NCBI GenBank assembly: GCA_024663395.1
Contig: JANFAH010000014.1
Location: 930,001 to 994,000, forward strand
Source: Pisolithus tinctorius
Lineage: Eukaryota; Basidiomycota; Agaricomycetes; Boletales; Pisolithaceae
DNA length: 64,000 nucleotides
Direction: 5' to 3'
Part shown: in pieces, positions 1-27,747 of the stretch
How positions within the stretch are numbered: position 1 is the first letter of the stretch
Layout of the letters: every line of letters begins with the position of its first letter
The notes under the pieces: model-generated
Database searches by the model: none
What the model saw: the letters and a program-made list of their open reading frames with translations, nothing else
Told to the model about the DNA's origin: nothing
Program-made: the position numbers and the translations under genes

Positions 1-1
1 G

Positions 2-1805
2 TCCCAACAGGCTGAAACATCCCAAACCACCACCACCACTCCCCCCATCACTCTCCCACATGAAATAGTCACTAATGCCACAGACATTGTCATGGCAGAG
101 CTTTTGACACTCCATGACCATAGGAACAAGCAATACTGGAAAAAAGCTATGCATGTCATTTGGGAGCAGTTGGTTTGTGGCCTGCCAATCTATTTTTCCT
201 CTGATATTTACAACATTCCAGACCCATGTGCGCCCTTTGGTAGAGGAACTGCCCTCAAAATTCACCATCCCCACCCACATCATCGCCACTGAAATGGTTA
301 TGAGAGATCCAGTGGTCCTTATGGTGGTGAAGGAGTGGCCAGACTTTGACAAGATCAGAGATGCAACTGATGCCAATGTTGCAGACCATCCATGGTACCA
401 GATTGGCTGGCCAGTCAACAAGGGTAAAGGGCATGCAGTTCCATTGGAACCACTTCAGATAAGTGACACTGCTGCCACCACTGCTGAAACTTTGGAAGAA
501 CCTCACAGCCGATCAACCAGTCGTGCTGCTCCTACAGGCACTCGGCCCAGAAGTAGAAGGCTGCAGAAGTGTACAAGGTCAGTGGCAGCAATTGATGCAG
601 ACATTTCGACAGTGACTGCTGGAGCATCCACCAGTTGCAGCCACTCGATTGCAGGTCTTGCAACCCCTGCCACTGGCTATATACCTGTTGCTGAAGAAGA
701 CCAATGCGATAGGTGCATGGAGAAAAACCTGCCATGCATGGTCAAGCCTGGTTCTGCTTGTTGGCAGTGTAGCTGCTGGAAGTACAGGTGCAGTATCTTC
801 ACTGGAGTGAAGGCTGTGCAGTCACAGTCAAGGCGGCCCTGCAGTCACACTGTAACTGAGGTGCCTGATGGAGCAGTGGAATGTCCCCAAACTGTCACAG
901 CCAACCATCCCCCCAGCCAATGCTGTCCTCAAAGCCCTTCACCAGGGCCATCAGCTACAATATCCTCAGAACCCACCACTCCTGCATGGCAGACCTGCAA
1001 GCAGTGGGCAGCCACTAGAGGTATGACACCCACTGCTGGCAAGGCAACCACCTCAGCCACTCCAAGCTCCTGCAGGCAAAGTAAGTCCTCCATTTCCTTC
1101 ATTCTGCTATTCTTATTCAAGCCTAACATAGTTTTCAATGGAGTGGTCATCATCACTCCATCCTGGTGGCAGTCAGGTCAGCAGACATCAAGCCCAGCAT
1201 CTCAGGGGGCAGCAACATCCCAAAGCCATCTCACTACCCCATCACACCCAGTGATACCCAATGCCACCCCCATGGAGCATGTGGAAGAGGAGATTGCAGC
1301 ATTGCAGCAGCAGCATATGGAGATGGCACAAGATCTCCTAGATACCTGCTGTGAGCTTGCTGATACCCAACGGGCCCTTGCAGATACACAGACCAAGTTG
1401 CAGATGCTTTCTGATGTTGTTGAGGCCTTATGCCAGTGCCTGTACCTGTTGCCACACTCCTCACCCAATGCACCTGGACCCTCCCACCCCTCCACCATTG
1501 GCTTTGCAATTACAAGTCATCAAGCAGTCATTCCCACTGATGGTGCAAGGATCCTTGACCTTGCACCAACTACCATGGTCCAGGAGGTTGTGATCGATAC
1601 TGGCATCCTCCAGAGCCTCCTGGGTGATATGCTTTTAGCCCCTTCTACTTTTCTGCCACCCACCCACCATTTTCTATACTCATCCACCCCTGGAGTAGGA
1701 GAAGCCCCACCCCCTATCTATGTCTCTTTGGGGGCTGTTGCTGATGATGCCAGTGGAGATGATGCCAATGATCAGAATGCCACTAATTGGATGGATGTAG
1801 ATTAA
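2..1805 (+). CDS. Zn2Cys6-like coiled-coil protein, 5' partial
   Basis: The reading frame enters from the left window edge (frame of base 2) and must move to the frame of base 114 somewhere around 150-260, by an unseen intron or an indel. The protein has a Pro/Ser/Thr-rich body, a cysteine cluster at 705-791 with exact C-x2-C-x6-C-x7-C-x2-C-x6-C spacing (the Zn2Cys6 binuclear pattern), and a coiled coil at about 1272-1430 rich in E, Q and L. It ends in an acidic tail at TAA 1803-1805. A probable in-frame 96-base intron (1081-1176, GTAAGT to CAG) lies inside the open frame; its translation is hydrophobic and unlike its flanks. Similar cysteine-cluster proteins are multicopy in mushroom genomes and sit near transposons. 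The basic residues typical of Gal4-type DNA binding are sparse, so a transcription factor role is not claimed. Confidence 0.5.
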
Positions 1806-2087
1806 CATGTCCATAGAATGTACTATTACCATTTCATTGTCGCCATTCCTGAGAATGATTATCCCCACTCACTTTTGCTTTACATGGTGCAGATATGGTC
1901 TCTCTGGTGTGTGCCATCCCATTGAGTCCAGCCAGGTGACTGCCCTTGTGATTTGTAAATCCACTGGTACAGCTAAGCTAGTGCACACTGGCAGCACCCT
2001 CAAATCATGCATGATACTTTCCACATATGTCCTGCACAATTGCAGGGTTTAACCCTCTGACCCAGGTTGAGGCCATGCAATCATGGC

Positions 2088-2092
2088 CTATG
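2088..2092. repeat. Target site duplication, left copy
   Basis: CTATG immediately precedes the 5' LTR and is repeated immediately after the 3' LTR. A perfect 5-base duplication is usual for Ty3/Gypsy integration and fixes the element boundaries. Confidence 0.95.
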
Positions 2093-2281
2093 TGTTACGA
2101 TACATACTCTTTTCCTTTCTCCCTTTTCTTTTCATCTTATCTTATCTCATGGCCTAGGCCTCACCTCACCTTTGCCATGCCTCCCCCTTCTGGTATGTTC
2201 TGCTCCACTATGATATCATCATGACATCACTATGATGTCATGGACCTCATGTACGCCTCACTGTTACCTCATGTACTATGG

Positions 2282-2287
2282 TATAAG
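2282..2287 (+). promoter_or_regulatory. LTR TATA box
   Basis: TATAAG lies about 30-35 bases upstream of the segment (from 2312-2317) that is complementary to the putative primer site. That is the spacing expected if transcription starts there. The start itself is inferred from TATA spacing and from the self-priming geometry. Confidence 0.6.
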
Positions 2288-2306
2288 TACCGTTGCCCAA
2301 TCACCC

Positions 2307-2325
2307 AACTAGCTCTAAGCTAGTT
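2307..2325 (+). other. Hairpin at the predicted transcript 5' end
   Basis: AACTAGCT (2307-2314) and AGCTAGTT (2318-2325) form an 8-base stem with a 3-base loop. The right arm overlaps the self-primer, so the primer could fold on itself or pair with the downstream site. The sequence is unchanged in the 3' LTR. Confidence 0.6.
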
Positions 2326-2451
2326 CATTTGGGTCTACGAGTCCTAAATCTGCCTGCTTCTAAGCTGTCCCCTCTTCTCTTCCCTTTCTCTTCTCTGTTG
2401 GTTCTTGGTGTGAGCCTACAACAAACCCTGTTGTTTAGGTCTTGTCACACT

Positions 2452-2462
2452 TGAACTAGCTT
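2452..2462 (+). other. Putative self-primer binding site
   Basis: The 11 bases TGAACTAGCTT start 3 bases after the 5' LTR. They are the exact reverse complement of AAGCTAGTTCA at 2317-2327 inside the LTR, near the predicted transcript 5' end. Tf1/sushi elements prime minus-strand synthesis with the first 11 bases of their own mRNA rather than with a tRNA, and this layout matches. I saw no obvious tRNA-like primer site here, but did not compare with all tRNAs. Confidence 0.65.
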
Positions 2463-2757
2463 CTTTATCGTTGTACCCTCGCACCGTCCATCACCATTCC
2501 TTGCTTCCTCCGTGAAGGCTTGTGGGTGTACTCGCCAAGTCCCCCAGCCTCAGAACCCAACCCCAACCTCTACATCCCATATATCCCTGAGCGTCGCTCA
2601 CTCACTCCACTCTTCGACCACAACCTCTACTCCCTTCCACCACCCCCCTCATACCCCTTCTCCATTGAATCTGTCTTCCTCTGTTCGCTCCCCACTGAAC
2701 CACAGCAACCCCATTACAATCTCCGCCCCCATCAGACTCTAAGATGCCCCAATTGCT

Positions 2758-3816
2758 ATGGACAGAATTCAGGACCAGCTCACCGACCTTCGCGACACTC
2801 TCGATGCTCTCTGAGAGGAAAACTACTGATTAAGCAACGAGCTAAGAGACACCCAAGGAATGATCATGACCATCGAGGGTCAGCGCAATCAGTGGAATGC
2901 CCTCCCTGCAGATGTAATTCAGAGGAGGATAGAAGTGATGGCTGACCTGGGGCAGTATGCCAGTGATCGTGCCAAGTTTTCCGAATGGTGGGTCAAGATG
3001 AAGGTATGGGTCACACAGAATAGGACCACCCTGCCGACAGCCCAAGACAAGTGTACCGTGGTGTGGTCCCGCATGACAGGCCCTGTAGCTGGAAGATTCG
3101 CTCAGGCCAAGTTCTCACTTGCCATCGTTATGGGAGTATGGCCTGATATGGCCGAGATGATCGAGGATATTGATAAATTCTTCGCCCCTCAAACAGATGT
3201 TGAGTGGGCAAAAGCACAGATGCACATGATGCGCCAAGGGAACTCTCAGTACAAAGAGTTCTATGCAAAGTTTGAGTCCCTAAAGGTTCAGGGACAGGTC
3301 ACTGATGAAACTGCTGGTTTCATTTTGGAGAATGCCATCCACCCCGCCATTGTAAAGGAGGCCCTAAGGAGGGGATACACTCAGGGAAATTACCTTCAGA
3401 TGACCATCGCCTTCTGTGAAGCCACCCTTGCTAGGGATCGCTTCAAACTCCTCTACAATCACTTCCCTGATGAACCCACTCCCTGCTCTTCTTATAATCG
3501 CCCCTCATACTCTCCCTGCTTTACTCCTACCAGCACTCAACCTGGTCGCAGCGCCCCCATGGAAATCAGCGCTGCTCGCTTCCCTCCTCACCCCGTCCCA
3601 TCCCACATCAAGTGCTTCGACTGCCAAGGGAATCACTACAAGCATGATTGCCCTCATGCTAAAGGAAAGGGTCCCGCTAGACCCGGCATACGAGAGGTGA
3701 TGCAGGAAGCACAGGAACTCACTCTCTGTCAAATGTTGTTTGAAGAAATGCAGGCTTTCTTCTATGACAAGCAGATCAATGAGATGAAGAGCCAGGGAAA
3801 AGAGTTCGGCCAGTAG
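2758..3816 (+). pseudogene. gag: gag of the chromovirus (two in-frame stops)
   Basis: The frame starts at ATG 2758 with a short heptad-like segment and continues to TAG 3814-3816. It is broken by TGA at 2812 and 2827, both readable as former CGA codons. From 2860 it is open and encodes a capsid-like helical region, a Pro/Ser-rich linker and a zinc knuckle at 3613-3651 with spacing C-x2-C-x3-H-x4-C, one residue shorter between the second Cys and His than the usual C-x2-C-x4-H-x4-C. ATG 2860 could still start a shortened Gag. Its last 22 or so bases overlap the pol frame. Confidence 0.85.
3795..3801 (+). other. Candidate -1 frameshift heptamer between gag and pol
   Basis: In the gag frame the bases read G GGA AAA, fitting the X XXY YYZ slippery pattern, five codons before the gag stop codon. 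A -1 slip here enters the pol frame, which opens only after a TGA at 3780-3782, so the shift must lie in 3783-3816. The heptamer is the only site of that form I see in this window. A downstream stimulatory RNA structure was not computed. Confidence 0.65.
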
Positions 3817-6800
3817 AGGATCGGGTCTCCACTGGCTACATTTATAACAAGTTTTCTGTCTTAGGCATTGACAATCTCTCTACTGAGCAGGATATATTTG
3901 ACTCGGAGACTACTATACCATCTGAAGAGGCAACCTCAGTAGGTGCAGCTGCAGATGTAAAACTATTGGTGCTTAATTCCTCTTGCGACAAAAATAAAAA
4001 CACGCCTATCCAGAAAACAAAAGAAACCCTGAAAATAAGGATGGCAGATCCAAAGGCCGAGTTGGAGTTGGAAGTGGTATTGGAAGGATGAGAAAAGAAG
4101 TGGAAGGTAAAAGCGTTAGTGGATTCAGGAGCCAACGATACGTTTTTGGATAAAAAGTGGGCTGATGAAAATGATGTCCCTCTGATCAAGCTTGGTCAGC
4201 CTGTCACTGTCCTCAACGTTGATGGAACCCCTAACATGGCAGGTAACATCACACATATCGCTTCCCTTGTCATGAACTATCAAGGACACCAAGAGTCTGT
4301 CTGGGCTCAGGTCACCATGCTCGGCATGCATCCCCTCATACTTGGCTACACCTGGCTATGAGAACATAATCCAGAGGTGTGCTGGGAAACCAAGCAGGTG
4401 AAGTTGTCCCGCTGTCCCCACGAGTGTCATGATCTCACTCCAAAGACAAGGGCAGAAAGGATAGCAGAGGAACAGGAAGCACAAGACATGGAGTATCTGT
4501 ACCTGAAACTCCGTTCTGCCAGGGTTCGAACCGGTGCTGTCAAGGAGCTCGTCCCAAGGGAGTACCATCAGTACCTAAAGGTCTTTTCAAAGGAAGAGTC
4601 GGAGAGGATGCCCCTTCATAAGCCATGGGATCATGCCATTGACCTCAAGGACACCTTCACTCCCAAACGTGGTCGCCTCATCCCACTCTCTGTAGAAGAA
4701 CAAAAAGAGGTGTCAGACTTCCTTGAGGACCAACTGCAAAAAGGATACATCTGCCCCTCAAAGTCACCACAAACCTCGCCAGTGTTCTTTGTGCTGAAGA
4801 AAGATGGAAAGAAACACATGGTTCAGGATTACCGCTACCTGAACGAGCACACGATCAAAAATGTGTATCCTCTCCCCCTCATCTCCCAACTCGTGGATAA
4901 ACTCAAGGGCTGTAAGCTCTTCACCAAGATGGATCTTCAATGGGGATACAACAACATTCATGTCAAGGAAGGAGATGAGTGGAAGGCTGCCTTCGTCACC
5001 CATAAGGGGGCCTACAAACCACTGGTCATGTACTTTGGCCTCTGCAACTCGCCGTCTACCTTCCAGAACATGATGAATGACATCTTCGGTGACATGGAGG
5101 ATGTCCTCATGGTCTATATTGACAACCTAATGATCTTCACAAAGACAGATGATGAAAGGGAGCATGACAGGATCATCCTGGAGGTGTTAAGGAGGCTAGA
5201 GGAGAATGACCTGTTCATCAAACCAGAGAAGTGCTTCTTCAAACAGAAGCAGGTGGAGTTTCTGGGCATGGTGGTTGGAACCGAGGGAGTCAGCATGGAT
5301 GAGAGCAAGGTCAAAGCCATAACCGAGTGGCCAGTTCCTACGAAGGTTCGCTTGGTACGGGCCTTCTTAGGACTAGCAAACTTCTATCGCTGCTTCATCA
5401 AGGACTTTGCACAGATCGCTTGACCTCTCAATGACCTCACAAAAAAGGATCAACTCTGGACTTGGGGTCCCCGAGAGCAACAGGCCTTTGATGCCTTGAA
5501 GCTCGCCTTCACCACTGCTCCTGTGCTCGCTTTCCCAGATCAGGATAGAGAATTCTGTTTAGAAATGGATGCCTCAGACTTTGCCACAGGGGCCGTGCTC
5601 TCCGTAAAGTGTGATGACGACCTCTGGCGACCCGTCGCCTTCTACTCCCATTCCATGTCCCCCCCTGAACGAAATTACCAGGTCTTTGACAAAGAGATGC
5701 TGGCCATAATCCGTGCTCTAGAAACATGGCAGCACTATCTCGAGGCCACTCCTTACCAGTTCGAAATCTGGACAGACCATTCAAACCTCCAGTACTTTAT
5801 GAAAGCACAAAATCTGGATCATCGTCAGGCACGTTGGGCCCAGTACCTTTCCCGGTTCAATTACCAACTGGTGTACAAGCCTGGCTCTTCAATGGCCAAG
5901 GCTGATGCTCTCTCTAGGAGAGAGGACCATGAACCAGAAAAGGGGTCACATTACTCAATCCCTCTAGGGTGGCAGCTACCTTGGTGGTAGGGGAGGATAT
6001 TGACCTTGTCCTTGCTCTGAAGTCTGCCTCCTCGGTGACACCGCAACTGGAAGGTTCCACCCTCAGGGAAGGGCTGTACATTTGTCAAGGGAAGGTTTAT
6101 GTCCCACCTGCCATCAGGATTCATTGTCTTGAAAAGCACCATGACACCCCACTTGCAGGACATCCTGGATGGAAGAAAACTCTGGAGCTTGTTTCCCACA
6201 ACTATGTCTGGCCTGGAATGACTGCCACTGTCAAAGACTACATCTTGGCATGTCACCATTGCCAGATGGCAAAAAGCTCTAGGACCCCTCCTGCAGGAAA
6301 GCTTCTTCCAAACCCCGTCCTGGAGCACCCCTGGGCCGACATCTCAGTTGACTTCATGGAGTTACCAGAAGCACAGGGTTTTGATAACGTCATGGTGGTG
6401 GTAGACAGGTTTTCGAAGGAGGTGGTCTTTGCCCCTACTACCAAAGAGGTTTCCTCACTTCAAACCGCAGAACTCTTCTGAGATCATGTGTGGACTCAAC
6501 ACGGATTACCTTCCTCTGTTGTTTCTGATCACGGACCCCAGTTCACTAGCACCTTCACTGCTGAACTCTGCAAAATGCTTGGGGTCAAACCCAAGCTCTC
6601 CACTGCCTTCCATCCCCAGACAGACGGCCAGACAGAACGTCTCAACCAAGATCTACAACAGTATCTCCGCCTCTTTGTCAATGACCGACAGGGTTCTTGG
6701 CCTTCTTGGCTGAAGGTTGCCCAGTTCTCCTACAACAACAAGAGGCAAGAGTCCACTGGCAGAAGCCCCTTTTTGGTTACCCGCTCCTATGTTCCCAGAA

Positions 6801-7489
6801 TGGGCATGGAACCCTTCCTTTCCAAGGCGGAAGCAGCCACAGATCATGCCGTTGATCTTGCTAAGGTTTTGGAAGATACAAAAAGGGCTCTGGGCAAGGC
6901 TGCAGAATGGATGAAGATGTCTGTGGATGTCTCCCAGTCGAATGCTCCTTCTTACTCTGTTGGCGACATGGTTTGGTTGGAAACTTCTCGTATCTCCCTC
7001 TCCAGTTGCCCTTCCTGGAAACTCACTGAATGATGGATCAGCCCCTACAAGGTTGTTTCACTCAAACCCAATGTGGTAGAGTTGAAACTTCCCAAGACCC
7101 TCAAAATCCACCCAGTCGTTAATGTTTCTCGGGTAAAGCCATACAAGGGACCTTTGGAGGGCCAAACTGTCACCCGCCCAGGACCAGTGGTAGGACATGA
7201 AGGCGATGAGGAGTTTGAGGTGGACTATGTTGCTGACTCTCGTCTAAAGAAGGGAAGGCTCGAGTACCTCATCCATTGGAAGGGATATCATGACGAGGAT
7301 CGCACCTGGGAACCTGAGTCCACTTTAAAGTCTGCCCCTGGTGCTGTCAGAGACTTCCATTGTCACAATCCTTCTGCCCCTCAGAGACTCCATGGAATGG
7401 ACTCCTCTCTCTTTTCCTCTCTCTTCCATCCCCTGGAAAACTTTACCAACACTGTCCCTACCTTCAATCACCTGGAAGTCGATTTCTAA
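3802..7489 (+). pseudogene. pol: pol of the chromovirus (PR-RT-RNaseH-IN-chromodomain, broken)
   Basis: Protease has its D-S-G at 4122-4130. The RT block runs about 4600-5330 and its catalytic box at 5115-5126 reads YIDN in place of Y-x-D-D. RNase H (about 5535-5930) keeps its acidic residues. Integrase has the H-H-C-C finger (about 6140-6265) and the D, D, E core (about 6340-6690). A chromodomain follows at about 7207-7330, and TAA is at 7487. TGA codons at 4089, 4359, 5421, 6479 and 7031 each stand where Arg (CGA) is expected. Near 5938-5945 the frame moves by -1 in an AAAAGGGG run. No functional polyprotein can be made. Confidence 0.92.
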
Positions 7490-7500
7490 GGAGGGGATAG
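7488..7500 (+). other. Polypurine tract
   Basis: A run of purines with one T (AAGGAGGGGATAG) abuts the 3' LTR, the position from which plus-strand DNA synthesis is primed in LTR retrotransposons. Confidence 0.85.
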
Positions 7501-7835
7501 TGTTACGATACATACTCTTTTCCTTTCTCCCTTTTCTTTTCATCTTATCTTATCTCATGGCCTAGGCCTCACCTCACCTTTGCCGTGCCTCCCCCTTCTG
7601 GTACATTCTGCTCCACTATGATGTCACAGACCTCATGTATGCCTCACTGTTACCTCATGTACTATGGTATAAGTACCATTGCCCAATTGCCCAACTAGCT
7701 CTAAGCTAGTTCATTTGGGTCTATGAGTCCTAAATCCACCTGCTTCTAAGCCGTCCCCTCTTCTCTTCCCTTTCTCTTCTCTGTTGGTTCTTGGTGCGAG
7801 CCTACAACAAACCCTGTTGTTTAGGTCTCATCACA
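7501..7835 (+). repeat. 3' LTR of the chromovirus
   Basis: 335 bases, beginning directly after a polypurine tract and ending TCACA before the CTATG target duplication. It carries its own copy of the TATAAG box at 7668-7673, so it could in principle drive transcription into the right flank. Confidence 0.97.
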
Positions 7836-7840
7836 CTATG
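7836..7840. repeat. Target site duplication, right copy
   Basis: CTATG directly follows the TCACA end of the 3' LTR and matches 2088-2092 exactly. Confidence 0.95.
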
Positions 7841-8850
7841 CCACTTCATGCTGATGCTGCCCACAAATAGCACTCAATGTTGCCCATTCTTGTCTATGCC
7901 ACTTGATGCTGGCAACACCTGACCCATGCCACTACCATTCCCATGTATGCCACCAGATGCCATCGATACCCACCCCCTGCCAGCACCTCATGTCCATGCC
8001 ACCAGCTGATTCCCATCTATACAGCTGCTCATTTCTGTCTATGCTGCCCGATGCTGTTACCCCATTCCCATATATGCTGCCTGATGCTGCCGACACCTGC
8101 CCTCTGCCAGTACCTCATATCCATGCCATCACACCATTCCCATCTGTGCCACATGATCCCACTGCATGCCAGCCATCCCACCAGCTGCCACTCAGTGCCA
8201 CCAGCTTCTGCTCCAGACTAGTGATTACTGCTCCCTTCCTGCTACTGCTGTGTCATGCTGGTGAGTTCTGCTGGCAATGCATGTTGCACTCTCCTCACTA
8301 CCCCTCCCTGTCTCTATATGCAAAACTATGCTGTTGCATACTAGTGTATGTGGCCATATGCTTTTGCATCTTCACCGGCTTACCACTTACCACACTGTCA
8401 GATGCAAGAAAATGCCACTTTTGCCTCAGTCATGCTCAGATGGTCCTTGCCACTGGTACTTGCCACTCCAGTAATCCACCCAGCATTTGGTGCAATGGCA
8501 TATCATGTTTCCACCATGTGCCAGGAGTTGCTGCTGTGTGCCACTGTATGCCCCAGACATACTGTGTTGTCATGTTGGGCTGCCCTATGTACACAATGCA
8601 GATCTAGTCTGGGCTATGCTATATATGTCCCTATGACATGATGATATTCTATTTGAAGCCTCTCCATGTGACACCTAAAAATATAATTGTAGCCAATTCT
8701 GGTGTCATGCATGACAATACAATTGTAGCTGATCCTGAGTGACACATGACAACATAATCACAGCCAATCCCTATGTTACAGTGACAACTCATAGGTCAGC
8801 TTGACCTCCACTGGCCATGTCACATGGCCTAACTAGGTACATGGGCTTGT
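7841..8850. other. Low-complexity DNA without a supported gene
   Basis: About 7841-8240 is made of degenerate, tandem-like ATGCCAC and GATGCTG words. These leave open frames with biased His/Cys/Pro content that do not resemble a protein family. About 8665-8790 has three imperfect copies, roughly 36-40 bases each, of a unit containing TGACA, AATTGTAGC and CAATCC words. The original target of the chromovirus insertion lies in this kind of sequence. No conserved coding signal was seen. Confidence 0.55.
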
Positions 8851-8859
8851 CAGTCCCCA

Positions 8860-11647
8860 GAAGTATTTAACAATACCAAGAAGAATAGTGTGGAGGATTT
8901 CTGTTGGTGTATCCTGATGGATGTTGACACCAGGCATTCCAAGAAGTGGATTTATATGGTCATCAATGTTGGAGTTTGACATATTTACCTTAGTCATGTT
9001 CCAGCAAGCACAGGATTATGTAATTGAAAAAGTGTACACTTTGCAGTTACTTATTTATCTGCACCTCAGCTTCAACCAACTTGAAGTCTGAGGTGAGACT
9101 CATACTTTCTTTCTACAGGACATTTACTTACCTACCTAGAATAATCCTTCTTTTCAGTCCAGTACTTGACTCCCTCTGCAAATTCATCAACCTTCAAAAA
9201 TCAAGAGACAGTCCACCCAATGCCAGTTCAAATTCCTTTTCCAGCTGCACCTGAACCTCTGCTTCAGGCTTGGCTGGTACTCCTGCCTTGCACTTTCTCA
9301 ACTGCTTCCCAAGCTCCAATAAACAATTTATGATAGACATTGACACTGGGTCACATATGCCAGAACTGGCAACTGCACCCTTGAGTTTCTCTGTTCCCCC
9401 AGGCAGCTTAGCCAACTCCACCTGCTTCTTGATCTCTGCTAATGTTCTTTCAGGGGTGCAGAGTTCACCACACTGGACTAAAAGTAGGTCAGTCATCCAA
9501 TGTGACATGGACTGTACACACCTCAAATACATAGATTCATATAGCCAGAGTCAGACATCTTCTCTTGATTTGTTCCACCAACATTACATGTCCTGCAGAA
9601 GTAGTTGCAATGAAGTCCTGCATGGCTGCACTCCTCTGCCTGCATTGGATTGTCTCCTGCAATGAAAACATTGTATGCAATGAGCATGACCTCTGTTTTG
9701 TATTTGCAGTCCCAGGTGATGACTCCCTCCTCCATTGTTTTCCTAATTATGACAGAGTCAGAAATCAATTGAACTCTGGACAATTTGGTACTCACCATAC
9801 AGATTTTGACACACCATTCATGAGCTCCAAGGGTGTATCATGTGGTGATGATGTAACAAAGCAAATGCAAAATTCCTTCTCAACCATTTCCCTTGGCATG
9901 GATGCATTGGACATATAGACGACATGATGCTTGTTCCATTGTTTTGATATGTTGCCTGAGACATCATCCATGAACAGGATGAGAGGGACAGAAAGCACTA
10001 AACAACCTCCAGACTTGATACAGAGTGGATTTGGCATAAGTTTTCCAAAGCATGCTGAGGACTCTACAAAAACATTTCCACCAATAAACAACATGCCAAA
10101 AGGAAAAGCTCACCTGTAAAGCCATTTTTGAATTCATCATTGTTTGCCTGGATATCTGTAAAGGTATGAAAAAATGTTGTGATGGGAGTAATGACTTTTT
10201 CTGGATCAACAGAAAAGCCAATCTATCCAGTGTCAGTCAGTCATGCAGCAGCTCATCACAACTCAGGTCACTTACATCAGTGCATGAAACTGAATGGCCA
10301 ATTGCCAGGATCTCTGGGTCTTGCTCAGCATTCTTCTGCACACAGAAGAACTTTGTTGGAATAAAATAAGCCCCATTGCTTTTTTGCAAAATTTCATCAA
10401 CAAAGTATACATTGCTTCCAACCTTAACACTTGGTGGTGCAAGACCTTGTGGAAGACCATGCAGCATTTTCTCCCCATGATAAACCTGAGACATTTTTCC
10501 TTCACCTTCCTCTGGGAAGTCCTGCATAGTAAGGCATGTAAGTGGGTTGGAATAATCCTGAGAAGAAATACAAGTTAGCACTGGGCTGGGCATGAGTGAT
10601 TCATACTCTTACCATTGCAATTAATTTTGCAACTGAATTCATGTAGAATGTTGTGCCAGATGGCACTGTAACCTTTTCAGTTGGATCCCCCATCAACTTC
10701 TTCATCCTTTGGTATGTTTTCTTCATACTGTAGAGAGATGGGATACCAGTTACCCCAATGGCACATGCCCAACCTAAGATTGCTCTTTTCTGGACCTCAG
10801 AGAAACACAGACATGGTGAGCTAAACAGTAGATGAGTTCTAAACTCCTGTAAACTCCACTGCTTTAACAACTCATTATCTTGAATAAGACAATTTAATTC
10901 ATACCATCATGTTTGACCATGGATAGGTTGGGCAGTCAGTGGGTACTTCTTCTGGTGAGACAAATTGGTTTGGAGTGTTTGGAGCTGCAGCAGAAATATT
11001 AGTCTTGACCCCTAAAGACAAAGGTAAACATACTTATCACATCCTCACATTCAAGATCACTCCAGTGTGGATCTCCATCTTCATCAAAACTTGTATCCAT
11101 CTCAGTCCCCAATTCTTCACCTGATGCTGGCAATGGGCATGAGAATAATGACTCTCCCCTCTCAAGCATCCCCATAATTTCCTCATAATAGTCAGTGGAT
11201 GTCAGCTCAATGGTTTTTTGTGGTTTATCCTATATGACATCAATGGCATTACCATCCACATCTCCCCCACTTCCATACAGTGAAATGCCAGGAATATCTG
11301 CAAGTAGATCTGGAGGCACCTGCAATGGGGGTGAGCTGATATTCATTGGCTCAGGTGATACCAGTGATCTATCCATTCCATGGGACTCCTCAACATCCAC
11401 CAGATTTGACTGATGCTTGCTTGTGCTGGCATGCTTAGGGACATGACAGCAGCACATTGTCAAATATTCACCATGCTTCCCTGGACAAACCAGGCATTGA
11501 ACCCTGTCTGCACCAGGAACAGTCCTGAACACTGTATTTGAAAGTTCATTTTCAAACTTACAGTACTGTTCAAGCTCACCTTTGGAGTCTGCCAATGCCT
11601 GGTGCTCTGCTGAATATCTGGGCTTTTTGCAGAAAGGTAACTGTGTA
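8860..11647 (-). pseudogene. Basidiomycete mobile-element (transposase-like) gene, decayed
   Basis: Read right to left, the exons give a Cys/His-rich N-terminal segment (11595-11370), then about 10870-10610, 10593-10240, 10230-10110, 10060-9790 (containing FMDDVSGN and QWNKHH), 9755-9530 (DNPMQAEECSH and CRTC), 9530-9200, and a last block at about 8961-8863 (INPLLGMPG and PTEILHTILLG). Clear introns are present, for example 50 bases from GTGAGC to TTTGTAG near 10110-10060. I know this arrangement from a large multicopy family of mushroom mobile-element proteins often annotated as hypothetical; CACTA-like relatives are possible, but I cannot name the superfamily. The 3' part after the last block is missing and the 5' part is separated by the palindromic element at 11648, so a remnant is likely. 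Confidence 0.6.
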
Positions 11648-11864
11648 CAGTGAGGGACAAAAGCGTTGCAATGTTTGTGAGGTGTGACTTGTTGCTGATG
11701 TAGCTCAGGCTAATCTGCACAGATAATGATGATACCTATACCATTGGAAAGGGGTGACTCTAAGCTTTCCAGAGCACTAAGGTTCAGTCAAAACAAAGCA
11801 ATACATGCTGAGATACACCCTATTCTTTCTGAAAGGTGCATTGCAATGCTTTTGTCCCTGACTG
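11648..11864 (+). repeat. Nested mini-element in the left arm
   Basis: The outer terminal repeat at 11648 has an inverted, slightly diverged copy at 11839-11864 (ending CCCTGACTG rather than CCCTCACTG). The outer 217 bases of the arm therefore have the structure of a small MITE with its own terminal inverted repeats. Confidence 0.75.
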
Positions 11865-13004
11865 GTGAAATCATGAAATGAGACCTTTTGATGGGATTGG
11901 GGGCATGGAGGATGGAAAAAAATGATTACATAATAAACCACATGATCTTAGAGATGATTTGTCAGCATGTAAACAATGACAAACATTGGACTTGTACCAT
12001 TAATCCTCCCTCTTTTACCACAACTCATGAAATCATCTCTCTAGCTCACATGGTCATTTTCTCAAGGAATTCTTATCAAATACTGGTGGCCACCACAGTG
12101 CCATCAGTATAACATGCTCTCAGAACCATCAGCCCCTTAAAAAACCTGCTGTCAGTCATTTCCTGGACTGTTTCCCCCTGCATACCTGATGTGTTCTGGG
12201 ACTAATCAGTACTTGGAAGGCTGAAAATGTTATGGAGGTCAATCTGGCACCTCAGAACATGATGTACAAGCCAGTCCTCTCTCAACCAATGCATTTCTGG
12301 CACAGGAACACTGATATGGAAGTTGGGGTGAGACAAAACCTCCTTGTGCTCTGAGCACCATAAAGAGGGTTCACTAGATCTTGCTCTGATCTGAACTGTA
12401 GATGACTGGGGAAGGATTATTTGGTCATGTGTGACCAAAGGCAATATTCAGGGCCAGATGGAAGCACAGGATTCTGCTCCATGGCAGCTCAGTAGCATAT
12501 CCTTCTGATGACTCCCAGGGGTAAAGAGGATTTTGTCTTTCCCTAACTTCCATACCACTGTCCCTGTGCCAGAAATGCATTGGTTGAGAGGGGACTGGTT
12601 TGTACATCATGTTCTGAGGTGCCAGATTGACCTCCATAACATTTTCAGCCTTCCAAGTACTGATTAGTCCCAGAACACATCAGGTATGCAGGGGGAAACA
12701 GTCCAGGAAATGACTGACAGCAGGTTTTTTAAGGGGCTGATGGTTCTGAGAGCATGTTATACTGATGGCACTGTGGTGGCCACCAGTATTTGATAAGAAT
12801 TCCTTGAGAAAATGACCATGTGAGCTAGAGAGATGATTTCATGAGTTGTGGTAAAAGAGGGAGGATTAATGGTACAAGTCCAATGTTTGTCATTGTTTAC
12901 ATGCTGACAAATCATCTCTAAGATCATGTGGTTTATTATGTAATCATTTTTTTCCATCCTCCATGCCCCCAATCCCATCAAAAGGTCTCATTTCATGATT
13001 TCAC

Positions 13005-13221
13005 CAGTCAGGGACAAAAGCATTGCAATGCACCTTTCAGAAAGAATAGGGTGTATCTCAGCATGTATTGCTTTGTTTTGACTGAACCTTAGTGCTCTGG
13101 AAAGCTTAGAGTCACCCCTTTCCAATGGTATAGGTATCATCATTATCTGTGCAGATTAGCCTGAGCTACATCAGCAACAAGTCACACCTCACAAACATTG
13201 CAACGCTTTTGTCCCTCACTG
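13005..13221 (-). repeat. Nested mini-element in the right arm
   Basis: Mirror copy of 11648-11864, beginning CAGTCAGGGACAAAAG at 13005 and ending at the outer terminal repeat at 13221. The two copies are in opposite orientation. Confidence 0.75.
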
Positions 13222-13717
13222 TAAATTGATTAAAGCTAGGAAATTGTGAGCAGTACACTGGTATGTACCACTGCAGGTATGAAGGGTACAGTAATTTACT
13301 ACTCACAATTGGAATTGCACCCCCTCAGGTGTGTGGCTCCCTCTGGATCTGATCAAGTGCTGCAGGGGCTGGTGGTACACACACTTGTGTAGATCAATGC
13401 AACCTGGGGGGGGTGAGTACATCAACACATACATACATGAAAAGTGGCCCATTACCTGCCTACAAGCTGACTTGTCTGGGTAATCTGCAAGTCTGCTGAA
13501 CTGCTTATCAGTAGTGTTGATTTTATTGAAACTGAGACTGAGTTAGGGTGTGATTCCCACTCAATTATTGACAAGGGAATTGATGGGGATAAATTGACAA
13601 GCTCAACTCACATTCATGACCTATTCTTGAAGTTTAAGGAGCTTGATGAGGTGCTGGACATCTGCTGGGGAGCATATGTTATCACACACTGATCATCCAG
13701 CATGGTGGTGATGTCAC

Positions 13718-14494
13718 ATGACTGATGCCAACTGCTGTTTGGCATTTTGTGCCATCAACAACACCACCAACCCCATGTCCACCAGAATGGCTATGGCCTC
13801 CATCAATGTGTCTACCATCCAATGTGTCAATGGCATCAGTCTCAGTCCAGTAAATTGTTCAATCTCATTTGATGGCCACTTGAACATTGTTGATGCACCA
13901 CCTTGCATTGTGAGGCACCTATTTCTTTCACCATCTACTGACACATTTTACCATTCACAGCCTATGCAGATATCTATCCATGTCCCTGAAGAATATTCAC
14001 ACCTTAGGCCATCTTTGCACACCTATGATGCAATGCCTCATACCCCACTTCAACCTCTGTCACATGTAAGTGGCTCATATGGTGTCATGTGTTGCTGCTG
14101 ACAGATTTCACAGACAGATTTTCCTTACCTTCCACTTTCCCCTACTTTTAACCACCTTGATGGCACAGCATGGGCTTCCCTTGCTGATGAAATTCAATTT
14201 TGGTTGGTCCACAGCATCACTGAGAAGCATTCACCCAACTGGCTATGGAGTCAGGAATTTTTCTGGATGGTGTTCATTGCAGCCTTCCCTCAGTTCCCCC
14301 ACAATGTGTGGCTGACCTGGAATCCATTGATCCCAATGGAGGGTCCATTCATTTGTAATTGGGTTTCAGAGCTCAACTCAGGTATGGTCAGCTTTGATTT
14401 GCCATCGTCCATCAGAGAGCTTGTGTGGGAGAAAGTGCAGAAATTGTCCACTATATTAATGTTGTCATACAAAGACTATCATGTACACTCTTGA
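13718..14494 (+). CDS. Unrecognised ORF fragments in the transposon island
   Basis: Open frames at 13718-14060 and about 14115-14494 can be joined through a candidate intron (GTAAGT at about 14066, CAG near 14116). The result is a Trp- and Pro-rich peptide ending at TGA 14492-14494. A minus-strand frame overlaps at 13714-13944. I do not recognise the family. The position beside the decayed mobile-element gene suggests another transposon-borne gene, possibly inactive. Confidence 0.25.
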
Positions 14495-15217
14495 GTGCCT
14501 GTAGGGTAGCAATTGATTGCCATTTGTTGTCCTTGTGAAAATTCACTCCCTACCTCTGAGCAAATCACAAGTTTGCATTAATACTGGTGTTGATGTTACA
14601 GGTACAGTAGATCTAGACTTGATGTTACTTTAATATTGATAGAAGGTTAAGTATTATATCAACTTGACTGTGTGCTGCTTCATTAATGTAGCATACAAGC
14701 ATAAGGACTGTGGTGATAGAAATCTGAGGCACCACTGACCCCCGAGCGACCTAAAATTGATGTTCAAAAACTTGGGATAAAACGGCACAAGAGAATTTTT
14801 CTAAAACAGATACTTGGCCTAACATTCATGAATTGGCTGGGAAATGTCTATTTCAAGGCCAAGTTCCGATTAAATATATAATTTTCGTCAAATGTTAGGT
14901 AACTGTTAGCTACATTTGGCCGTGTAGATGTCTTCGTCCGTTGCCTCAAAGGCTTGATGGGCCTGGCAAAAATAGATAATTATATAATAACATTTCCTTA
15001 TTTGGTATTATCTTGGCATTATCCGACTATCCCTATGGGTTATCACACTCAAGATAGGTATGGGTTATGGGTTATATATGTGAAATCCCAGCAAACCAAC
15101 TTGGGAAATCCAAAAAGCTATGGGTTCTCAGGGAGTATGGGTTATACAGGGTATGGGTTAGGAGGGAGTCAACTGTAAGTACATCATGGGTGGTGAAAAA
15201 TAAACAATGCCAAATGA
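14495..15217. other. Intergenic junction between transposon island and host genes
   Basis: No gene is supported. Base composition changes near 14,740. Between about 15,035 and 15,175 the word TATGGGTT recurs about seven times at irregular spacing. This stretch is the upstream region of the dioxygenase gene at 15218. Confidence 0.5.
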
Positions 15218-16522
15218 GTGGTGTTTCGAACCGTGGACTTCTCGACTACCACAGTCATGCTATTGCCCGCTGCCCGCTCGCTGTCCCGCCCAACGAGTCT
15301 CCAACTGAAACTGCCGCAGATCAATGCCAGCTTCCCTTATCTCTGGCTCCGCGATGCCTGCCAGTGTCCAAAGTGTGTCCATCCATCGACACGGCAGAGG
15401 CTTCACAGACTCTCCGACATCCCCGCCGATATCGGTCCTGCAACCGACGACAGTGTCGATCTCAAGCAGGACGGTGTCCACATCAGGTGGACAGACGGAC
15501 ACGAGTCATTCCACTCGTTCACCTTCCTCGAGCGGTACTCCTCTGCCTCGAGTCTCTCTTCTTTCCACCGCGACATCCCCGCTGAGCCGTGGGATGCATC
15601 GACCATCTCCCAGTCTCCCGATCTGTTCGTGCCGTACGACGATCTCTCCCAGCCATCGCGTCTTCTCAGTGCCATCACACAGCTTACCCGCTTCGGGCTG
15701 CTCCTCGTGACAGGCGTCCCAACTAATAATACCGACGATGCGACTTGCGAAACTCGCAAATTAGCGAATCTGTTCGGGGAAATTCGACCCACTCTTTATG
15801 GGGAGGTCTGGGAGGTGAAGCATATCGTTGACAGTCGAAACATTGCATATACAAACCTCGACCTCGGATTACATTGTGATCTACTGTAAGTGAGCCATTT
15901 CCGATCCTAAGACCGCTACCTGAATGACGTGATTTGTAGATACCTTGAGCATCCCCCGCGATACCAGATCCTACACTGTCTCAGAAATCGAGCCGTTGGC
16001 GGCATGTCTATCTTCGCAGATGGACTGCACACAGCAAATACCCTTCGCAGAACCCATCCCGAGGACTTCAACATTCTAAGCACCACCCCGGTCCCTTTCC
16101 ATTATATCAACGATGGTCATCATCTTCACCACGAGCATCCGACTATCGAGCTCGAACCGATCCCCACATCACCATTCGCAGAACGTACTGTGAAATACAT
16201 AAACTATTCACCTCCATTCCAAGCGCCACTGCTCTTGAGCCCTGGACTACTGGAGTTCCATACTGCATTGAAGCAATTTGCGACCCAGCTCGATGTTCCA
16301 GGGAACCGCATGGAATATGTCTTGCGTGAAGGAGACGCCGCACTGTTCGATAATCGCAGGGTCCTTCACGCGCGTACAGCATTTGCAGACATTGGCTGTG
16401 ACGTCGACGGAAAGCCTAATCGTTGGCTGAAAGGGTGCTATTGGGAGGCAGACCCTGTTCTCGACCGTGGAAGAGTCCTTCGTGCTAGCGCCGAAAATGC
16501 GAAACCAAAACCTGTCAGCTGA
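15218..16522 (+). CDS. Gamma-butyrobetaine/TauD-type 2-oxoglutarate dioxygenase
   Basis: Two exons (15218-15885 and 15940-16522) with a 54-base GT-AG intron give about 416 residues. The N-terminal region has the DUF971-like zinc-binding signature of this family (WLRD, then C-x-C-x2-C and HPSTRQ). The C-terminal part is a TauD/TfdA fold with the iron-binding H-x-D at 15872-15880, split from its context by the intron, and the distal His in LHAR at 16367-16369. The family contains gamma-butyrobetaine and trimethyllysine hydroxylases of carnitine synthesis; sequence alone does not separate them. A second ATG at 15257 starts a more mitochondrial-looking N terminus and may be the true start. It ends 108 bases from the convergent hydratase gene. 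Confidence 0.85.
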
Positions 16523-23701: not shown

Positions 23702-24210
23702 ATGATTGGACTCAAGGGATGTCTGAATGTGAGTTTGGCTTGCTTGCTTGTATGGAGTCCTTTGACAAGGTGTCCAAGGTAATCGATAACTCGGGTGCTC
23801 TTCTCGTAGAATGTGTCAACGTGCTCAAGCAAAAGGTCAACAATGGGTGGGGGTCCGTAGGTGACGAAATTGTCTGCGTCGTCAAACAGGCACGTCCAAT
23901 ATCAGAAGCCGCTCAAGCATCTGCCACTGCTGTCAAAGTGCGACGCGGTGACGTGCGACGCGCCGTGATTGTACGGACGAAGAAACCTATTCGCAGACCC
24001 GACGGTCGTTTCATCCGTTTCGACGACAACGCAGTCGTTTTGCTAAACAACAAGCGGGAGATGCTGGGTACCCGCATAGGTGGCGTCGTTAGCGCAGATC
24101 TGAGAATGAAAGGATGGTCCAAGATCGTGAGCTTGGCACCTAAAGTAGGCATTCTACTCGTTTTGCCTCCCTTCCCCCCTGGTGTTTAAGGTGATGCATA
24201 GGTCGTTTGA
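23702..24210 (+). CDS. Mitochondrial large ribosomal subunit protein uL14m
   Basis: Three exons, 23702-23728, 23779-24144 and 24202-24210, give 133 residues, the usual length. The protein begins MIGLKGCLN and has the L14 signatures [18 protein letters not shown], and KGDVRRA-like [21 protein letters not shown] and the ending LAPKVV. The last exon holds only GTC GTT TGA and is needed to restore the family C terminus. L14 binds 23S-type rRNA at the subunit interface. Lack of an obvious N-terminal presequence is common for this protein. Transcribed away from hexokinase. Confidence 0.93.
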
Positions 24211-24865
24211 TTGCACGGGCGGCCCCAACTACCCACCCATGAGATATCCCAAGTGTCCTTGTACCTAAAGCCGGTGTCCTGATTGCCCTTGAATCGTTTG
24301 GCCCTTTCCCCCAAACTCGACATCCCGATGACGGTCTCTGGAGAATCGCCCGTCGGCATCTTCTAGTACAATTGTATCGCCCCATTGAATAGTGGAGCGG
24401 CAAGCACTTTCCTGTCTTTGACTGCTCTAGTGTTGTAACTACTTCTACCCGTAGACATCAAACGCCTAAATTCGCTCGTGCCTTTGTCAAACTCGTCTAG
24501 ACTGTAACGTATGACTCCTCAGCGGGGAGCATCCGTGTTGTAGGCAGTGTGAATGTTTGATACTGGGTGGTATTCCGAGTCTCTTGGTACTAGAATATAG
24601 TATCGGAGATCAAGTTCAAAATTCGGAGAAACCCCCACTGGAGCTTTGTGATTGGAACACGAGACCGATGGAAACACGCATATTGTACGAGTTCAGATCC
24701 CCCTCAATGGTAGCTATTGTGACCCTGCAGTTCCTTACACGCGCGAAAGCCAAAATCTGAACCGCGGACTGCAGCCAGGTTCACTCATGCATACCAAATA
24801 GGAGGAAGCGGGTCGAGGTTCTCTCACTAACGAGGTCTGTATGTATTCTATGTGATAAGGTGGTA
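24211..24865. other. Convergent intergenic region, no gene seen
   Basis: The 655 bases between the stops of uL14m and the ATP synthase gamma gene contain only short open frames without conserved motifs. Presumably 3' untranslated sequence and terminators. Confidence 0.5.
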
Positions 24866-26044
24866 TTACAGAGCACTTGCACCTGGTTATCGTCAAGACC
24901 GCGTGAGCCATTTTGAGTGGTCAAGTGAGTTACGAGATACGAACCGGTGATAATGTCGACCAACTCGTTGGTTATGGCAGCCTGGCGACCACGGTTATAT
25001 TGCAAAGTCAGAGCACCGATCATGTCCTTCGCATTGTTGGAAGCGTTGTCCATGGCATTGCGGCTGTCAAAAAAAAAGAAAAGGTGAGTAGTTGCCAACA
25101 ACGGACAACAGGTAATTTACCGAGCACTCTGTTCACAAGCATGAGCCTCGACCAGTGCAGCATAAATAGCATTCGCAAGCGAGAACTCTGCAAGGTCTTT
25201 GGCGAAATCATCCTCCATCTCGTATGCCCGGAATCCAGCTGCGGAGTAACGATTAGTTTGTATATGGATGATAGTCACAAGGAGAGCACTAACAGGACTC
25301 CTTGAGAAGCTTCTCGGTGGTGACCTCGACAGTAGCAGCCTCGTATGATATAGCCGAGACGAACTTGTTGTACACGATAGTGACACTGTCATACTCGACA
25401 CCGCTCTTAACGATCAAGTCGGCAACACCAGCAGCATCAGCGAATGTGGGGATGTCGCGGCCAATTTGGTTGAAGCTCATGGCCATGTTCTGCCCGAGCA
25501 CGCGAGACAACTGGCCCTTTGACTTGTCACCAATGACCATGACGGGCGAAGCTGGATCAGCTTGGTCGGACTCGGCCAGTGCACGGCGGGTGGCTTTGGA
25601 GACAGACGAGTGGATACCGCCACAAAGACCCTTGTCAGACGAGACGACAACGAAGAGCTTGCGCTTTGATGGGGTCTCTGGAGGAGTGTGCTGGAAGATT
25701 TCTACGAGCTACATGAGTTGCTAAATCCACGCGGTGCTGGAGGGCGGAGCGCACCGGAGTTAGCTGAACCGTACTCCTTGCCAGCTTGCATGGCGCGCTG
25801 TGCTTTTGCAAGTTTCGTCGAGGCAATCATTTTCATCGACTTTACGATACCAAATGTCAATTGTGCTCATTGCAACCCGGTGTACAAAAACCAAACATAC
25901 TTTGGTGATTTTTTCGATGTTCCTGACGGACTTCAGACGCAACTCGATTTCGCGCAGGGTAGCCATGTTGCGGGCATTTTGAGGAGCAGCACCCAGCGTC
26001 GGACGCTGAGACGCGATGCGACCGAGGGAACTCCTTGCAAACAT
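24866..26044 (-). CDS. ATP3: Mitochondrial ATP synthase subunit gamma
   Basis: The spliced protein starts [14 protein letters not shown], an Arg/Ser-rich mitochondrial presequence, then [22 protein letters not shown], the N-terminal helix of the rotor shaft. The middle holds [11 protein letters not shown], and the C-terminal helix has [11 protein letters not shown] and [25 protein letters not shown], the most conserved part of the family. The final exon (24882-24866) supplies ASAL. Several short introns are present, including 24883-24944. Gamma couples rotation of the F0 ring to catalysis in the alpha3beta3 head. The ATG at 26044 is only 195 bases from the divergent eIF2-beta start. Confidence 0.95.
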
Positions 26045-26239
26045 TGGGGATCTAGTCAACCTGCGCTGGTCAGCCCGTCTTTGGGAGTATCGGGAAGCCT
26101 CGGCGACGAGCGAGCGGAGATGCAAATCACCTGCCGATATTCGGTCGCCGACTCGAATCTCGGCATCTGATGGCCTCTCCCAAACCGATCGACGGGCTTG
26201 ACTCATCGACTGCAACGACCACCGCGATCGGCGCGAAAA
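26045..26239. promoter_or_regulatory. Short bidirectional promoter between ATP3 and eIF2-beta
   Basis: Only 195 bases separate the two divergent start codons, so both core promoters and 5' leaders must share this space. No TATA box is evident on either strand. Both genes are housekeeping, which fits a shared constitutive promoter. Confidence 0.6.
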
Positions 26240-27479
26240 ATGGCTTCGGAAGAGCCGCTGTTTGATCCTTCGCTGAAGAAGCGCAAGAAAAAGACCGTCG
26301 CTTTCACAGAAGACCCACTGGGCCGTGATGCTGACCCTACAACCCCTGCACCGACCACGATCGACAACCACACGACAGATGGTAGTGCTGTCGACTTGGG
26401 GCCAGCTACCCTACATGAGCAGATGAAGCGGAGTGAGAGTACGGCTGTTGAAAAAGATGATGCAGACGAGGGAAAGGAAGCCGATGACTTCAAGGCAATG
26501 TTCCCTGAAGGCCTCAAGAAGAAGAAAAAGAAGAAGGATATTCCAATGGATCTTGTAAGGTTATACTTTCTCTTCTGTTAATTGCGATGCGAATGCCTTG
26601 TTCAGGGCGAAGATGCCTCCGAAGGCCTGCCACCAGCGATCGCTCCTACAGAGGACCTTGACTTCTCTGACGTGAAAAAGAAGAAGAAAACTAGCAAGAA
26701 AAAGGCCATGGAGGATTTTGAGAAGGAGCTTAATGAGGCAAAGGCAAAGGAGGATACAGAGGATGTCGATGTAGATGACGGAGAGCATCTGAATGACATA
26801 GATGAAGCGGATCTAGGCGACGACCCCTTCGCTCGCCCAGAGGCACCAACAGGGGTCGATAGTGGTACGGAGCCCTGGCTCGGTAGCGATCGCGATTATA
26901 CTTACGATGAGGTGAGTGAGCACCTTCCCCAATCACCGCCAACATCCTGACATTATTCACTCAGCTCTTGCTGCGCTTCTACGCGTCTCTTCATGCATCG
27001 AATCCCTCTTTGCTCACATCTGCCGGAAAACGGTACACAATTGCCCCACCTCAAATCCTTAGAGAAGGCATACGGCGATCTATATTCGCCAATATCGCCG
27101 ATATCTGCAAGCGTATGCACCGGTCACCAGACCACGTCATCCAATTCTTATTTGCGGAGATGGGTACGACCGGATCTGTGGATGGTATGGGACGTTTGGT
27201 AATAAAGGGTCGTTTCCAACCCAAACAAGTAGAAAACGTTCTCCGTCGATACATTGGTAGGTTTCTTTCGCCTGTGCTATCCCAGAACGCCCTTTCTAAG
27301 ACGCTGCAGTCGAGTATGTCACTTGCAAGACTTGCAAGTCACCCGACACCATTCTCACGAAGGAGAACCGCATATTCTTCATGTCTTGCGAGTCATGTGG
27401 TTCGCGGCGGTCTGTCAATACCATCAAGAGCGGATTCCAGGCACAAGTAGGGAAGAGAAGCAAAAACAAGGTAGCCTGA
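26240..27479 (+). CDS. SUI3: Translation initiation factor eIF2 subunit beta
   Basis: Four exons: 26240-26554, 26606-26911, 26965-27256 and 27310-27479. The N-terminal half has three lysine blocks ([13 protein letters not shown] and KKKKK...KKK), which in the family bind eIF5 and eIF2B-epsilon. The C-terminal half has the conserved eIF2B/eIF5 fold and a C4 zinc ribbon (C-x2-C in TCKTCKS and C-x2-C in SCESC). Together with alpha and gamma subunits it carries initiator Met-tRNA to the 40S subunit. The last intron splits the Val codon before EYVTC. Ends SKNKVA at TGA 27477-27479. Confidence 0.95.
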
Positions 27480-27747
27480 TGTGGCTGCTATTGCCTCCCC
27501 TTGTCAGTCGATTAAGACCACCACGCCACGAGTGTATGTAATCTGGCCACACTGTACGACATTGACATTACATCACAACGAATGAATACATGCACGACGG
27601 AGACGGCCCGCAAAAACATAAATAAGCGTGCACAGAAGAAATCGAGGACGGCGCGGGGTCGCGGAAATTCCACCGATGAGATTAGACTAGTCATAAAGTA
27701 AAAAATCGTTCAACAGAATACGCGTGATCGTTGTCGCCAAACCTATA

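Follow-up and report, generated by a model that had tools for sequence, protein, structure and literature searches.

The stretch of DNA analysed here, 64,000 nucleotides from the basidiomycete Pisolithus tinctorius (the window), harbours close to its left end a retrotransposon whose two long terminal repeats (LTRs) differ from each other exclusively at dinucleotides of the classes CG/TG, CG/CA and TG/CA. The same CpG loss recurs throughout a sampled family of related elements, and it probably reflects a gradual decay of methylated CpGs.

A chromovirus with CpG-restricted LTR differences

Ty3/gypsy chromoviruses are defined by the order of their domains, by direct LTRs with TG...CA ends and by a short target duplication, and a chromodomain behind the integrase is their hallmark. 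The window element is assigned to this group because protease, reverse transcriptase, RNase H, integrase and chromodomain follow each other in this order between its LTRs, although its pol region is broken into pieces. On the forward strand, a target-site duplication CTATG (2088..2092) precedes the 5' LTR, which spans 357 bases with TG...CA ends and retains four CpGs (2093..2449; alignment and family search). The pol pieces comprise an aspartic protease (4092..4361; PF13975, E 1.5e-6), a reverse transcriptase (4362..5423; PF00078, E 1.1e-29), an RNase H (5424..5990; PF17919, E 2.5e-35; PF17917, E 4.8e-35), the zinc-binding and core parts of an integrase (5933..7033; PF17921, E 9.5e-21; PF00665, E 4.5e-5, the latter under the curated cut-off) and the chromodomain (7034..7489; PF00385, E 1.8e-14). 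A purine-rich candidate polypurine tract (7491..7500), recognised from the sequence, adjoins the 3' LTR, and GGATAG stands directly before many LTRs of the family. The 3' LTR (7501..7835; alignment and family search) has 335 bases and likewise four remaining CpGs, and is followed by a second CTATG (7836..7840). As this 5-base duplication is identical at both ends, the two LTRs belong to one insertion. Within the pol frames, each of the five stops inspected reads TGA, the product expected from CGA, and is counted for CpG decay; the two further stops inspected, upstream of the pol frames, are one TGA and one TAG.

Realignment of the two LTRs with MAFFT gives 335 columns with 16 base differences and one 22-base gap. 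The 16 differences make up 11 dinucleotide sites: six are CG in one LTR and TG or CA in the other, five are TG against CA, and none falls outside this class; only one CG is common to both LTRs. The first-pass annotation had listed 12 substitution sites beside the 22-base indel, a count that drops to 11 while the indel stands, and both its restriction of all substitutions to the three CpG-derived pairings and its five sites with TG facing CA are borne out. When random substitution is simulated in the window LTR, a site falls into the CpG class with a probability of ~0.10, or ~0.16 if only transitions are allowed, so that 11 of 11 would arise by chance with P ~1e-11 and ~1e-9, respectively. The aligner places the 22-base indel at window positions 2206-2227, at a repeated CACTATGAT motif, and indels of 18 and 22 bases also occur in the LTR pairs C22, C77, C3a and C15a.

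Clock-like CpG loss across the LTR family

The assembly searched for related LTRs comprises 92.5 Mb in 221 contigs. To obtain LTR pairs, we ran four LTR queries, each with 362-370 first-look candidates, and took the 40 best of each, a selection that is not random and favours query-like copies. We measured 26 pairs and counted 23, all with matching 5-base target duplications, which were matched from the flanks for C94 and C3a (CTTGA and CCCAA) and by the pair measurement for the other 21; the LTR5 and LTR3 labels of C94 and C3a are swapped, which leaves the totals unaffected. Pair C143 was excluded as a near-identical copy of C16, and C125 and C31b were excluded because they have no matchable target duplication and many non-CpG differences. 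In each of the latter two, the 5' LTR (L072, L073) differs from its 3' partner by 58 non-CpG and 3 CpG-type changes and several gaps, and retaining both would add 116 non-CpG and 6 CpG-type sites. The 5' pieces of C125 and C31b do not differ, so the two are probably the same insertion encountered twice, and these 5' LTRs have perhaps been exchanged or are mosaic.

Over 8778 columns, the 23 pairs hold 178 shared CG sites, 132 one-sided CpG losses, 39 TG/CA sites and 34 other substitutions (20 transitions and 14 transversions; pair C2b accounts for 12 of all 34). Hence, 171 of the 205 difference sites are of the CpG type, and nine pairs, including that of the window, lack any non-CpG substitution. 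The bias seen in the window pair therefore extends to other copies of the family, but its purity is not total, as C2b illustrates. We fitted, pair by pair, a model in which every CpG can undergo a single loss, the strand being random and the probability per LTR being p, such that shared, one-sided and opposite-strand sites are expected at (1-p)^2, 2p(1-p) and p^2/2. The fitted 174, 140 and 35 sites compare with 178, 132 and 39 observed, which upholds the earlier proposal that CpGs decayed independently on opposite strands. Fitted p ranges from 0.03 to 0.96 across the family; for the window pair, p is 0.76 with 16.9 original CpGs. Averaged per LTR, loss amounts to 0.61 for each CpG, compared with 0.0021 for each other base. 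The CpG-to-other decay ratio is 287 (bootstrap 213-497) and rises to 341 when the oldest pair is left out.

Does this loss accumulate gradually or in bursts? Repeat-induced point mutation (RIP) of the Neurospora type leaves strand-coherent runs from single passes. In the 23 pairs, no such runs are present: the two directions of loss are even (CA 109, TG 101), and adjacent losses share their direction in 75 of 167 cases, under the permutation mean of 84, and on this basis strand-coherent RIP is rejected. Losses are balanced between LTR5 and LTR3 within pairs (P 0.34), with single pairs leaning to one side (for example C3b, 6 and 0). Other substitutions rise with CpG loss across pairs (rho 0.50, P 0.016), a clock proportional to CpG loss beats a constant model by 16.4 log units, and the scatter of other substitutions around this clock shows no significant excess (P 0.15). 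The lack of strand runs, the balanced LTRs, the proportional clock and the absence of excess scatter together argue for gradual and independent loss.

The CpA preference of Neurospora-type RIP is found neither in the window pair nor in the 23-pair family. For sequence context, we omitted L001 and L009 (using the window's own LTRs instead), L072, L073, six near-identical second copies and extracts outside 330-400 bases. Loss differs by 5' base, from 79 of 423 at ACG (0.19) to 37 of 366 at TCG (0.10; P 0.009), a difference that is confounded with LTR position. The TpCpG preference of the Pucciniomycotina type is ruled out, since the reverse is seen, with TCG least lost.

Block edge, neighbouring repeats and genome content

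The assembly holds two haplotypes, at least in part, and contig C66 matches window 24001-29000 at 97-98%. C66 is collinear with the window from 15253 on, the right edge of a block that is absent from C66 at this place. To the left of this edge, C66 continues with C14:806256-811340 and a 38-base piece (C14:827585-827622), C14 being the contig that includes the window. Absent from C66 at 8117/8118 are thus ~118 kb (C14:827623-945252, including window 1-15252), and a 16-kb piece (C14:811341-827584) is also absent there. Our reading of the ~118-kb block covers its right 15 kb (window 1-15252) together with less than 0.7 kb at its far end, and that of the 16-kb piece about its first kilobase and its last half kilobase. 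Per kilobase of the window, observed/expected CpG is 0.00-0.43 up to 15 kb and 0.70-1.42 beyond; 14601-15200 contains 9 CpGs in 600 bases, the following 400 bases 31. CpG depletion stops at window position 15253, where haplotype collinearity starts. In the 13.7-kb haplotype alignment to the right of the edge, CpG losses number 51 and 54, with 2 TG/CA sites and 197 other differences, and no spread of CpG loss into this single-copy DNA is seen; its first kilobase has 5 and 6 CpG losses on the two haplotypes. The CpG-to-other ratio in single-copy DNA flanking the block, a measure that takes CpG gains as losses, is 8 on the right and 5 on the far left.

The chromovirus is not the only repeat of the block with this signature. 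A dispersed repeat unrelated to it (1..2085; 36 genome matches) shows CpG-dominated decay in comparison with two relatives, with 80 CpG-type and 24 other sites against L092 (ratio 340) and 99 and 42 against L093 (ratio 151); the ratio between L092 and L093 is 105. This repeat contains a 565-aa open frame at 108-1805 that has no Pfam match and is broken in L092. Further right lies a foldback repeat with 723-nt arms (11646..13223) that is nearly free of CpG, with 0-6 CpGs in each of five copies compared, and occurs in many copies, at least ~30 of them at 96-97% among the matches listed. The foldback repeat may owe its spread to its small CpG target. No tandem repeats are present in window 1-16000. 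Beyond the block, the gene at 27748-29610 best matches a Pisolithus orientalis protein (94% identity, 91% query coverage), with proteins of other Pisolithus next in rank.

A profile search of the genome with PF00145 gives three matches. One is a DNMT5-like exon (E 1.9e-73 to a chain of 7r76, PDB name Rad8), an entry that we take to be one of the Cryptococcus DNMT5 cryo-electron microscopy structures. The other two are equal in frame length and score, and the one tested is a DNMT1-like exon (E 2.7e-20). Judged by these exons, a CpG methyltransferase is encoded in the genome. According to PMC13297926 (in part), DNMT5 is a Rad8-related SNF2-methyltransferase for which Cryptococcus has provided cryo-electron microscopy structures; the same source gives DNMT1-RFD and DNMT5 as the maintenance set of basidiomycetes and Dim2 as absent from Basidiomycota. 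With PF00145 as the probe for RID/Masc1-type enzymes, the two tested matches are of the DNMT5 and DNMT1 kinds, and introns may hide others. Of 186 candidates for the TET/JBP domain, 150 were scored; these give 150 matches, and at least 149 lie over the cut-off. In-frame stops occur in 54 of the 150 rows by hand count (61 TGA, 8 TAG, 1 TAA), some rows being related copies that share one stop. The UDG-superfamily domain has no match in the genome in a search that ignores introns (13 of 14 control genomes match). With this caveat, a loss of base-excision repair as the cause of CpG loss is a mere lead, because lost uracil repair would raise C-to-T changes outside CpG as well.

Origin of the CpG loss and its consequences for dating

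The loss converts CG to TG or CA, on both strands alike, at sites that behave independently, and it accumulates with age. Decay of methylated CpGs is in our view the best reading of this pattern, and we hold it with good though not full confidence. At insertion, both LTRs of the window element would have been identical, with ~17 CpGs each according to the fit. The element would have entered repeat-rich DNA that was very probably kept CpG-methylated by DNMT1 and DNMT5, and each methylated CpG would then have been lost once, on a random strand, through a 5-methylcytosine-to-thymine change, giving TG when the top strand changed and CA when the bottom strand did. Other bases would have stayed nearly unchanged meanwhile, while about three quarters of the CpGs in the LTRs of the window element disappeared. 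Methyl-CpG decay in mammals also yields TG and CA products, arises on either strand and leads to CpG depletion. In contrast to mammals, Pisolithus shows strong decay in repeats and weak decay in the compared single-copy DNA, and its CpG decay exceeds other mutation by a roughly tenfold larger factor.

Several observations weigh against decay of methylated CpGs. CpG methylation itself and the deamination chemistry are what we infer from sequence, and the ratio of ~290 exceeds what simple deamination would suggest, human methyl-CpG on the same measure being roughly tenfold lower. The window pair lacks non-CpG substitutions, although 3.1 would be expected from the clock (Poisson ~0.05), pair C2b has 12 non-CpG against 7 CpG-type sites, and loss depends on the 5' base, with the confounding described above. 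Moreover, differences mainly outside CpG mark two older repeats to the right of the element. In comparison with two relatives, the repeat at 9200-11653 has 8 CpG-type and 40 other sites, and 12 and 17, respectively; the foldback copies have 32-53 other against 2-10 CpG-type sites in six comparisons. These mostly non-CpG differences may mean that CpG was already spent in both repeats; the foldback repeat probably spread when already almost without CpG and, being nearly CpG-free at that time, offers little target. Finally, the first kilobase of the 16-kb piece (L096) is not CpG-poor, with 49 CpGs in 1000 bases; therefore, not all DNA absent from C66 has decayed.

If a ~290-fold CpG hypermutability were too strong for passive deamination, methylation might act together with a mutator, either missing T:G repair or an enzymatic conversion such as TET/JBP oxidation. 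We regard this variant as possible but not favoured. The first-pass annotation had suggested intense CpG-directed methylation, in line with the reading preferred here, or a CpG-focused RIP-like process, in which the dikaryon would detect repeats before entering meiosis and mutate their CpGs in bursts. Repeat CpG signatures in basidiomycetes have indeed been termed RIP-like (PMC4014442, PMC5381629, both in part), single-copy DNA to the right of 15253 lacks excess CpG loss, and many small passes on either strand could still mimic decay. Yet strand coherence is absent, the LTRs are balanced, and the loss is clock-like and graded from 3% to 96%; the three PF00145 matches include two tested, which are DNMT5-like and DNMT1-like, and one study reports RID/Masc1 from none of the basidiomycetes it covered (PMC4352252, in part). 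In the strict sense, a RIP-like process is not supported, as we see no strand runs, clear bursts, LTR asymmetry or leak into single-copy DNA, and we consider it improbable.

Could the signature instead arise in the assembly, with methylated CpGs wrongly read as TG or CA, or from ordinary neutral divergence with a CpG bias of single-copy size? Miscalling is very unlikely, since the two LTRs present the same local context and yet differ in their calls, CpG loss tracks ordinary substitutions, TGA accounts for 61 of the 70 in-frame stops in TET/JBP rows, and stretches at 8-14 kb of the window are almost wholly without CpG. Seven loci were set against a near-identical second contig: five are free of substitutions, another has 7 CpG-type differences and 2 others, and the last has 22 other differences and 22 gaps; the argument is weak, since loci that are identical may have been duplicated by the assembly. 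Neutral divergence draws on the fact that CpG also varies more than other sites in the single-copy DNA flanking the block, but the ratio of 5-8 there lies far below the LTR bootstrap range, and we find this explanation scarcely tenable.

CpG-biased decay of basidiomycete transposons is already in print, and its kind is therefore known; new here are its purity, the size of the ratio, the clock-like behaviour and the four tests. In Basidiomycota transposons (Microbotryum, and weakly Melampsora and Puccinia), C-to-T decay with a CpG signature has been linked to a Masc2-like Dnmt1 (PMC4352252, in part). That decay resembles ours in its C-to-T changes and their complement at CpG in repeats, in its DNMT1-type enzyme and in the methyl-cytosine deamination proposed. 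It differs in that Pisolithus is an Agaricomycete with a DNMT5-like exon too, and in that we add tests of strand, clock and edge and use LTR pairs, within which decay is measured so that no consensus is needed. The TpCpG RIP-like hypermutation of Pucciniomycotina (PMC5381629, in part) shares the CpG core and the gypsy-type elements, whereas Pisolithus LTRs have no TpCpG preference. Among Agaricomycetes, single-nucleotide polymorphisms show a CpG-to-TpG excess in Rhizoctonia solani AG8 (PMC4014442, in part), where genes are hit like repeats, and in Heterobasidion parviporum (PMC5870257, in part); ~40% of C-to-T changes lie at CpG there, against 171 of 205 LTR difference sites of the CpG type here, although the measures differ. 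In Zymoseptoria, Dim2-dependent mitotic C-to-T mutation (PMC8016269, in part) is similarly a DNA-methyltransferase-linked mutation of transposons without meiosis, but the fungus is an ascomycete and the target is CpA. Among the titles and abstract openings listed from the open-licence literature, none dealt directly with the decay of CpGs or the dating of LTRs in Pisolithus.

For dating, the consequences are considerable. Raw LTR divergence in the family is 244/8778 (2.8%) against 34/~8010 (0.42%) at non-CpG positions, an overstatement of ~6.5-fold, and for the window pair 16/335 (4.8%) against 0/~301, in agreement with the warning of the first-pass annotation that LTR dating is inflated here. 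Without masking of CpG-derived sites, LTR dating in such genomes would overestimate ages several-fold; the loss of CpGs could itself serve as a very fast clock to time recent insertions. Whether RIP-like mutation or methylation decay removes the CpGs of basidiomycete transposons is left open in the portions of the literature examined. Strand runs, LTR balance, clock proportionality and leakage can all be measured in LTR pairs, and all four favour gradual decay here. If a methylation-linked mutator were nevertheless at work, it would act gradually on transposons and spare adjoining single-copy DNA, as a slow, clock-like counterpart of RIP.

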